The notes beneath the pieces were generated by a model, which saw only the letters and a list, made by a program, of their open reading frames with translations, made no database searches and was not told where the DNA came from. Below, in pieces: positions 13,827 to 38,491 of a stretch of 64,000 bases of DNA. The translations under genes were made by a program, and so were the position numbers. The stretch covers positions 1-64,000 of IMG/VR virus record IMGVR_UViG_3300035633_000651, one strand, 5' to 3'. This stretch comes from a virus. The first letter of the stretch is position 1, and every line of letters starts with the position of its first letter.

Positions 13827-14568
13827 ATGACCCTGCGAGTCCAACTCCGGGCCGCCGAGGGCGGCGCCGACGCACGCGACCTTGTCCGTCTCCAGGCGGA
13901 CATCTACCGGAAGTACTGCGAGCGGAGGGGGCTTTGAGTGGGTTGAAGACCCAGCTTCGAGTCAACGGGATACCGACCGGTGCCGTGAGTATCTGGTCCT
14001 CGGGGACCCGGCTCGCGCCGAATCCGCTTTCGCCAACGAAGCCGGAGGGCACCGTTTTCAGCGCGTTCCGCCTTCTGAAAAACGTGGCCGAGTCCACACG
14101 TCCACGATCACCATTGCCGTCCTGGCAGGTGGAGGTCACAGTCGACGAGGACGACCCGACGCGGTACCACTTCAAAATAAAGAACCAAGGAACCTTGCAG
14201 CGACACAAGAGCAGCTGAAGCTAGAACGCTACAAAGGTGGCAAGGGCGGGCAGCACCAGAACAAGCACGCCAACAACGTCCGGCTCACCCACACGCCGAC
14301 CGGCACCACCGTCCAGGTCGAGGGTCGGTACTTCCACAAGAACCGCGACAAGGCCTACAAGCTCATGGAGGACAAGCTCGCAGCGGCCCAAGCCGCCCGC
14401 GCGCAGGCAGCAGAGGCGGCGGTCGTCGCGGACCAGGTGGGCTCAGGCATGCGCGGCGACAAGGTTATGACGGCGGCACTGCAACGTGACACTGTAGTGC
14501 ATCATGTCACCGGTAAGACGACGACCGCGAAGCGCTACCTCCGCGGCTACGTCGACGATCTTCATTGA
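13827..14568 (+). CDS. PrfH-like peptide chain release factor, programmed +1 frameshift
   Basis: Frame A (13827-13934) encodes 36 residues matching the start of release-factor domain 2 (LRAAEGGADARDLVRLQADI). It meets TGA at 13935 in the context AGG GGG CTT TGA. This combines the two elements of the bacterial prfB frameshift site: a Shine-Dalgarno-like AGGGGG and the slippery CTT TGA. A +1 slip continues in an open frame to 14568, giving about 246 residues with AGGHRFQRVP, the RF1-like PxT position as PPS, RVHTSTITIAVL and the catalytic GGQ (KGGKGGQHQNK). Domain 1 is absent, as in PrfH. Codon bias between 14116 and 14215 favours a third frame, so two compensating indels are possible. TTGCGC-N17-CAAGGT precedes the ATG. 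Confidence 0.78.
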
Positions 14569-14586
14569 TTGGCTCGACGGCATCTT

Positions 14587-14718
14587 GTGTTCGTGAAGGT
14601 GTTTCGGAGCACTCCTCACGACAAGCGTCGCACGATCGCTCTACAGCGAGACTCGGCCGTAGACCACATTGACAACTGGTCGACCACCGCGAAATGCTAC
14701 CTGCGTGGCGACTGGTAA
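14587..14718 (+). CDS. Short copy of release-factor C-terminus
   Basis: 43 residues from GTG 14587. DKRRTIALQRDSAVDHI and AKCYLRGDW align with the end of the release factor just upstream (DKVMTAALQRDTVVHHV, AKRYLRGYV). It looks like a tandem duplication of the C-terminal 40 residues, either a remnant or a small separate product. Its stop overlaps the RNA ligase start. Confidence 0.5.
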   Translation: MFVKVFRSTPHDKRRTIALQRDSAVDHIDNWSTTAKCYLRGDW

Positions 14719-15715
14719 GCTCCTCACGCGCGAACAGTTTCGGGAGGCGGTCTTCGCGCGGGACAAGCGTCGCTGCCTAGTCTGCGGGGAGCGCGCACTC
14801 GACGCTCACCACATCTTGGAGCGCAGGCTCTGGCCAGACGGAGGCTACTACCTCGACAACGGCGCCTCGGTCTGCGGCATTCACCACCTCGAAGCCGAGC
14901 GCACCACCATCTCATGTGAGTTCCTCCGAGAGCGCGCAGGTATCGAGCGCGTCGTGCTTCCGCCCCACTTCTACCCGGACACCCGCTACGACAAGTGGGG
15001 CAACCCGTTCGTCGAAGGAACCGAGCGTCGGTACAAAGGCGAACTGTACTACGACGCGTCGGTGCAGAAGATTCTCGACCCAGGCGCAGGCTTCGTTGAT
15101 TACGTGAAGTACCCGCGCACCTATCATCTGCCCACGTCGCCCGGCCTCAACGCTGACGACCGACGCATGGAGCATCTCGACCACCTCCTTGGCCACGAAG
15201 TCGTCGTCACCGAGAAGATGGACGGCGAGAACTGCAGCATGTACCGCGACCACATCCACGCGCGCTCGCTCGACTCGCGAGGCAGCGTGGACCGCGACTG
15301 GGTCAAGAACCTCTGGTCCGGCATCCGCCACGAGATCCCGGACCGCTACCGCATCTGCGGCGAGAACCTCTGGGCAAAGCACACCGTCGCCTACGACGAC
15401 CTGCCGAGCTACTTCCTGATGTTCAGCCTCTGGGACCAGAACACCTGCATGTCCTGGGATGATACCGAGCTGTGGGCTGGCCTGTTGGGTCTGCATCTGG
15501 TGTCGGTGTGCTACCGCGGCGTGTTCGAGGGGCAATCCTTCGAGGACCACCTGCCTCCAGGCGCCGAGGGCTACATCGTGCGCCGGGCTGACGCCTTCTC
15601 GTTGGCCCAGTTCCGCACGCATGTGGGCAAGTGGGTCCGGGCGGGCTTCGTGCCCGAGCACGGGCGTCACTGGCGCCGCGGCCCCTACGAACAGAACGGC
15701 CTTCGAAAAAATTGA
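14705..15715 (+). CDS. HNH-like zinc domain fused to RNA ligase
   Basis: About 336 residues from GTG 14705 (a TTG at 14669 is also open). The N-terminal ~80 residues have an HNH/zinc pattern: C24 and C27, H35-H36, then CGIHH. The remainder is a nucleotidyltransferase RNA ligase with motif I EKMDGEN (adenylated K171), motif III YFLMFSLWD, motif IV EGYIVRRAD and motif V KWV. It would seal RNA 5'-phosphate/3'-OH nicks. It sits directly behind the release factor, recalling bacterial prfH-RNA ligase pairs that repair damaged ribosomal RNA. Fusion of HNH to this ligase is unusual. Confidence 0.8.
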   Translation: MATGKLLTREQFREAVFARDKRRCLVCGERALDAHHILERRLWPDGGYYLDNGASVCGIHHLEAERTTISCEFLRERAGIERVVLPPHFYPDTRYDKWGNPFVEGTERRYKGELYYDASVQKILDPGAGFVDYVKYPRTYHLPTSPGLNADDRRMEHLDHLLGHEVVVTEKMDGENCSMYRDHIHARSLDSRGSVDRDWVKNLWSGIRHEIPDRYRICGENLWAKHTVAYDDLPSYFLMFSLWDQNTCMSWDDTELWAGLLGLHLVSVCYRGVFEGQSFEDHLPPGAEGYIVRRADAFSLAQFRTHVGKWVRAGFVPEHGRHWRRGPYEQNGLRKN

Positions 15716-38406: not shown

Positions 38407-38481
38407 AGCGTCGGTAGCTCAGTGGTAGAGCGCCGTGGACTAAGGCCCCCGGAGGTCGCAGGTTCAAACCCTGCCCGACGC
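38407..38481 (+). tRNA. tRNA with expanded anticodon loop
   Basis: Acceptor GCGTCGG/CCGACGC, D arm GCTC-AGTGGTA-GAGC, variable AGGTC and T arm GCAGG-TTCAAAC-CCTGC are canonical. The anticodon arm CCGTGG...CCCCGG leaves a loop of 8 bases (or 10 with a 5-bp stem) containing CTAAGG, so the anticodon (possibly Leu) is uncertain. Confidence 0.65.
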
Positions 38482-38491
38482 AAACCAACCC

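Follow-up and report, generated by a model that had tools for sequence, protein, structure and literature searches.

A prfB-type recoding site in a predicted RF1-like release factor gene of a tRNA-rich phage and its relatives

The release factor gene and its recoding site

The stretch of DNA analysed here (the window) comprises 64,000 nucleotides (nt) of a 109,677-base virus record, IMGVR_UViG_3300035633_000651, and carries on its plus strand a release factor (RF) gene that is divided between two reading frames. The first part is a zero-frame open reading frame (ORF) of 36 codons (13827..13934, +), which begins with the ATG at 13827, runs into the TGA at 13935-13937 through the codons GAG CGG AGG GGG CTT TGA and, as indicated by a match to the PCRF domain and by codon usage, encodes the start of RF domain 2 (helix alpha5, LRAAEGGADARDLV...); across 13827..13934, the codon-usage log-odds are positive in the zero frame only. 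The second part is a +1-frame ORF of 210 amino acids (13936..14568, +), which contains HRFQRVPPSEKRGRVHTST and KGGKGGQ and whose homology, extending through the GGQ motif, assigns it to the rest of domain 2 and to domain 3 of an RF1-like factor.

Where the two parts meet, positions 13924-13937 read GGAGG-GGG-CTT-TGA. Sequence and family comparison point to GGAGG (13924..13928, +) as an internal Shine-Dalgarno (SD) sequence that would stimulate frameshifting, and a 3-nt spacer, GGG (13929-13931), separates it from the slip codon CTT (13932..13934, +), which is recognised by its conservation in the family and on which CUU -> UUU re-pairing would produce a +1 shift. The regulatory stop, TGA (13935..13937, +), is followed by G and is found at the same aligned residue in 61 of the 62 frameshifted genes described below. 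As in the prfB-type cassette, CUU lies directly 5′ of a stop, coding continues downstream in the +1 frame and an SD-like sequence stands 3 nt upstream of the slip codon. By contrast, the stop of the prfB cassette is cognate to its product (UGA/UAA, RF2), which would not be the case here, as the product is RF1-like by motif. The sequence GGAGGNNNCTTTGA occurs once in the 64-kb window, where 0.03 occurrences are expected by chance.

An earlier note on this DNA had proposed an RF2-style +1 site at this place, and the zero-frame stop, the CTT, the +1 homology through GGQ and the homologous site in 61 other non-redundant loci bear this out. Its statement that AGGGGG directly abuts CTT was mis-registered, since the strong anti-SD complement is GGAGG and ends 3 nt before CTT, which is the spacing of E. 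coli prfB. We regard the window site as a genuine programmed recoding site of the prfB type in an RF1-type phage factor.

Identity of the encoded protein

When the two parts of the gene are scored separately, the N-terminal part matches PCRF weakly (E 0.003) and the C-terminal part matches RF-1 clearly (E 1e-13), while fusing them at CTT lifts the RF1 model score from 104 bits (second part alone) to 123 bits. The RF1 model match begins at position 108-116, and this, together with the separate PCRF and RF-1 matches, supports the earlier view of a release factor without domain 1. In agreement with the absence of that domain, the gene, with 123 and 116 bits, falls below the NCBIfam cut-off for a full RF1 equivalog (400-423 bits). 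A profile of the whole family finds RF1 structures first (1.7e-71, domains 2-4), then RF2 and, far below, PrfH. The proposal that the protein is PrfH-like is thus correct as to the missing domain and incorrect as to the family, as it scores 43 bits with the PrfH model (TIGR03072, cut-off 166.65) versus 123 with that of RF1. For the same reason a PrfH-RtcB system was rejected as a candidate; additionally, no RtcB partner was recognised among the neighbours, which are annotated in part, and the RNA ligase encoded downstream in the window belongs to PF09414 and is not RtcB.

The position known as the RF “anticodon” is PxT in RF1 and SPF in RF2. In the window it reads PPS (14068..14076, +; from the alignment and family counts), and the catalytic GGQ motif follows at 14245..14253 (+, from the sequence). 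Most members of the family have PPT, PPN, PPS or SPT at this tripeptide (mostly PPT), and the equivalent of Gln-181 is kept in nearly all scored rows. The window protein accordingly carries GGQ, a PxT-like motif and the Gln-181 equivalent, and the RF1-like decoding suggested earlier (PPS here, PPT or PPN in relatives) agrees with this. Because the PxT-like tripeptide and the Gln-181 equivalent are kept, the phage factor is predicted to be specific for UAA and UAG. A structure predicted for a relative that is uninterrupted at the site (L027; predicted local distance difference test score, pLDDT, of 73) has ribosome-bound RF1 as its best match (template modelling score, TM, of 0.84), and in this model the recoding site would fall between helix 16-36 and strand 40-47. 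These sequence comparisons suggest that the window gene of this tRNA-rich phage specifies a class-I release factor that resembles RF1 and lacks domain 1.

The linker before the GGQ domain (14115..14205, +) has an insertion relative to the family, as seen in the alignment and in codon usage, which at 14115-14185 (~70 bases) fits another frame (VEVTVDEDDPTRYHFKIKNQ). This irregularity is probably a compensated pair of indels, either natural or derived from assembly; despite it, all family-invariant residues are retained in the window copy. Directly after the RF stop, a second RF tail remnant (HDKRRTIALQRDSAVDHIDNWSTTAKCYLRGDW) is found in the same frame (14569-14718), which is probably a partial tandem duplication. 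It is followed by the gene of the RNA ligase domain protein (14708-15712), located between the RF gene and a large tRNA array, and the DNA of this gene is 67-74% identical to a Caulobacter jumbo-phage sequence. The array starts 1.4 kb downstream of the RF gene, and there are 33 tRNA predictions in the window. Far from the array, a tRNA-like gene at 38408-38482 has a 4-base anticodon call (taag), which may reflect a tRNA that shifts frame or a wrong prediction. No family of neighbouring genes is common to more than a few of the frameshifted loci, and the neighbours offered no functional hint.

The frameshift site in related phages

A scan of IMG/VR with the single protein gave 11 relatives with 36-47% identity, most of which have CTT and a stop at the same place. 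Two profile scans were then used (the best 80 of 214 loci and the best 80 of 422 loci), six published huge-phage assemblies were also sampled, and bacterial prfA genes served as control; loci were classed by frame-aware profile comparison and then made non-redundant. The resulting 134 viral genes comprise 62 with the shift, 64 with one or more in-frame stops and 8 that are uninterrupted. Bacterial assemblies supplied 68 genes, of which all but one (67) are prfA without interruption; the remaining one (L186) clusters with the genes of the phages. One of the 62 shift members (L179) also comes from a bacterial assembly. In annotated phage records, no clear family member was found among named cultured phages; members were present only in unannotated huge-phage assemblies.

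In all 62 shift members the stop is preceded by CTT, a codon that makes up 18% of the other Leu codons in the same genes. The stop itself varies (45 UGA, 14 UAG and 3 UAA), it stands at the same aligned residue in all members but one, and the base after it is C in 49/62. An SD-like stretch precedes the site in 52 of the 62 genes, compared with 10.9% of other codons, and in 33 it is GGAGG with a 3-nt spacer. The direction of the shift is +1 in 61/62; the remaining gene (L157) reads as +2, probably owing to an additional indel downstream, as its upstream site is identical to that of L008. No link between the stop at the gate and the tripeptide motif could be drawn, as the cases are too few (PPN in 10/45 UGA and 2/14 UAG genes, SPT in 3/14 UAG genes), and the gate codon has only a weak link with the stop usage of flanking genes.

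These counts also bear on the possibility of a sequencing or assembly error or of a decaying gene, which might be invoked because of the odd linker and long branch of the window copy. As the same interruption is present in 62 non-redundant loci, many of them from different samples, with an identical slip codon in every one, and the family-invariant residues are intact, error or chance was rejected for the site, and we consider this explanation extremely improbable.

Some members depart from the usual arrangement. In L007 (3817-3845), the site is found at codon 8 (ATG ACA AAC ACA AGG AGG TCT CTT TGA C, with GGAGG at 3 nt), and the usual internal place is uninterrupted. L098 (5900-5990; LR756511, a 595-kb huge phage) is a basal RF gene with apparent tandem +1 sites, CTT TAA C and then CTT TGA C, between the start (AAAGGAGG upstream of the ATG) and the RF body, possibly forming a two-input gate. 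In L097 (LR745208, a 485-kb huge phage), the frameshift is retained and the stop-recognition loop is shortened (HRVQRTSNGRIHSS versus HRVQRVPPTEKRGRVHTS), so that this factor may read stop codons abnormally.

In-frame stops in a sister clade

The 64 in-frame loci have no shift, and their in-frame stop lies in the same region of the gene. In 48 of them, a UGA preceded by a Gly codon aligns with the CTT codon, at a residue that in cellular RF1 is most often Trp (28/67), and A follows the UGA in 43; E. coli tRNA-Trp is especially prone to misread UGA when A comes next (PMC5289835). The stops of the other in-frame genes lie slightly further on. For instance, there are two UGAs in L090, L093 (LR745206) and L096 (LR756501, 735 kb), a UGA and a UAG in L148, and a UAG alone in L011. 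In L148, L149 and L156, the in-frame UGA and the subsequent in-frame UAG are eight codons apart, with readable sequence after both.

It could be argued that these relatives are code-4 phages, which would read UGA as Trp throughout, so that the UGA would not be regulatory. Phages with code 4 and RF1 have been reported (PMC10746230), and the site is the Trp position of cellular RF1. However, no internal stops were found in the portal (14 genomes), terminase (20) or DnaB (18) genes of the in-frame-UGA relatives, and in 20-kb samples of seven such genomes the standard code gave an ORF coverage of 0.81-0.94, with many ORFs ending in TGA. Furthermore, TGG is still used elsewhere in the in-frame-UGA genes (e.g., HRWQR in L090 and L093), and some relatives have UAG in place of UGA. 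A test for the UGA=Trp code based on the flanks alone was suggestive, although it was not clean in GC-rich contigs. The in-frame-stop phages tested use the standard code; a UGA=Trp code was rejected on the ground of the intact portal, terminase and DnaB genes and the ordinary use of TGA as terminator, and it is very improbable as an explanation for the clade. Selenocysteine insertion was also rejected, since no consensus for a selenocysteine insertion sequence (SECIS)-like or other conserved RNA structure was found 3′ of the UGA in 25 or 30 aligned sequences; one tRNA-SeC-like gene was present among all loci scanned.

In a tree with cellular prfA as outgroup, whose supports come from a quick search that leaves many forks open, the shift genes form one clade (67 rows; Shimodaira-Hasegawa-like approximate likelihood-ratio test, SH-aLRT, 93) and the in-frame-stop genes another (63 rows, SH-aLRT 88). 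The window gene has a long branch (1.93) and an uncertain exact position. Five uninterrupted genes, including L007, are near the base. The other three fall inside the shift clade, as do two in-frame genes (L039 and L110), and the position of these two suggests that the recoding modes can interconvert. Within the shift clade there were at least 15 changes of stop identity and zero changes of CTT. What is conserved is a stop plus CTT, not one particular stop, and such a pattern is the one expected from selection for the recoding event. In all, a stop is retained in this region of the gene in more than 100 related viruses; about half of these stops would be slipped past, and the rest are apparently read through. 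The earlier note had recognised the frameshift site and overlooked both its UAG and UAA versions and the sister clade with in-frame UGA.

A possible mechanism of regulation

In the scheme established for prfB, a ribosome that holds CUU in its P site and the stop in its A site pauses there, and either terminates or slips by +1 (PMC5009743, PMC12421855). Applied to the window gene, reading of the stop would yield a dead-end peptide of 36 amino acids, while a +1 slip on CTT would join this start to the 210-amino-acid GGQ part, and full-length output would reflect a race between termination at the gate and slippage. With a UGA gate, slippage would compete with host RF2, and the factor would be made in proportion to how poorly UGA is terminated. 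In UAG- or UAA-gated relatives, the product could in principle read its own gate, which would amount to genuine feedback. In the sister clade, this control would apparently operate via readthrough of the in-frame UGA, and UGA-A at a Trp position suits misreading by tRNA-Trp. We infer here both the occurrence of slippage and readthrough and the identity of the factor that would be sensed.

Since the product is predicted to recognise UAA and UAG whereas UGA gates are the most common, host RF2 is a more probable regulator than the product itself, and a sensor of another release factor, as had been suggested earlier, is plausible. Self-feedback would mean that the phage factor also terminates at UGA despite its RF1-like motif, as in ordinary prfB-type autoregulation. 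The cassette is the same as that of prfB, and the motif variants PPN, PPS and SPT exist; on the other hand, the PxT-like motif and the Gln-181 equivalent predict UAA/UAG specificity, and UAG gates are found at 14/62 phage sites versus none of 8,164 prfB sites (PMC12421855), so we consider this alternative rather doubtful.

A somewhat stronger, though still unlikely, competitor is that the recoded stop merely keeps the factor scarce and senses nothing. The swapping of stop identity and recoding mode requires inefficiency alone, two in-frame UGAs are present in some phages, and RF over-expression is toxic in B. subtilis (PMC12421855). Nevertheless, a weak ribosome-binding site would be a simpler route to the same effect, the invariant CTT and the SD suit a regulated cassette, and every stop-codon gate is inevitably sensitive to the level of its cognate RF.

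Our preferred interpretation, which we hold with good though not full confidence, is a stop-gated RF1-like gene whose output is set by termination versus slippage, most likely against host RF2. Several observations weigh against it. The codon specificity assumed for the product is a motif-based prediction, the window gene has diverged (end branch 1.93) and has an odd linker, an obvious SD is absent at 10/62 sites, and the predominance of UGA may simply result from its being the leakiest stop, without RF2 sensing. Additionally, 8/134 viral genes are uninterrupted at this place, which implies that some phages can do without the control; relatives with a continuous frame, which the earlier note held would count against the site, thus exist, but they are a small minority and in part nested losses. 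As a general rule for phage RF1-type factors, an early stop gate that is passed either through +1 slippage on CUU or through in-frame readthrough, the two being interconvertible, and that reads host termination capacity (mostly RF2 at UGA), is an idea towards which we lean only slightly.

Relation to known systems and implications

As in prfB, the phage genes combine a CUU slip codon, an adjacent stop, a +1 shift, a GGAGG/AGGGGG-type SD 3 nt upstream and, usually, C after the stop, and the zero-frame peptide is short (the site is at codon 26 in E. coli and at codon 37 in the window). By contrast, the phage product is RF1-like and lacks domain 1, the site is located in domain 2 at the junction of helix alpha5 and the following strand, UAG gates occur in the proportion given above, and the commonest gate, UGA, is non-cognate by prediction. 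Like PrfH (RFH), the phage factor is a class-I factor with GGQ and without domain 1. Unlike the phage factor, which retains a PxT-like motif, is scored far higher by the RF1 model and has no recognised RtcB partner, PrfH works on damaged ribosomes, is partnered with RtcB and carries tip residues of its own. Code-4 phages likewise encode an RF1, although in the phages tested here the standard code applies. In the closest parallel in concept, the eRF1-type factor of Mimivirus and Megavirus, synthesis of a viral RF also passes recoded stops, and both recoding modes occur (PMC3521657). That factor, however, belongs to the non-homologous eukaryotic/archaeal family and combines frameshift and readthrough in one gene, whereas the phages have mostly one mode per sister clade.

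None of 8,164 prfB motifs has UAG, and prfA lacks a programmed site (PMC12421855); in 2016, in-frame readthrough replacing the shift in RF1 or RF2 genes was known from no organism (PMC5009743). In the literature searched (open-licence papers), no description of a phage RF recoding case was found. The cassette is that of prfB; the RF1-type product, the phage setting, the UAG gates and the sister clade with in-frame stops are new. Autoregulatory frameshifting, for which prfB is the textbook example, had been thought to be restricted to RF2. If the general rule outlined above holds, the CUU-UAG version would be the missing RF1 counterpart of prfB control, and the readthrough version would be the arrangement once imagined for RF2 and absent from the RF1 and RF2 genes known in 2016. 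In practice, automatic annotation of huge phages would split or miss such RF genes. Homologous phage genes that are gated by UAG, UAA or UGA and employ either recoding mode would constitute a natural experiment on the evolution of termination sensors, and the family suggests that large phages monitor the release factor activity of their hosts.
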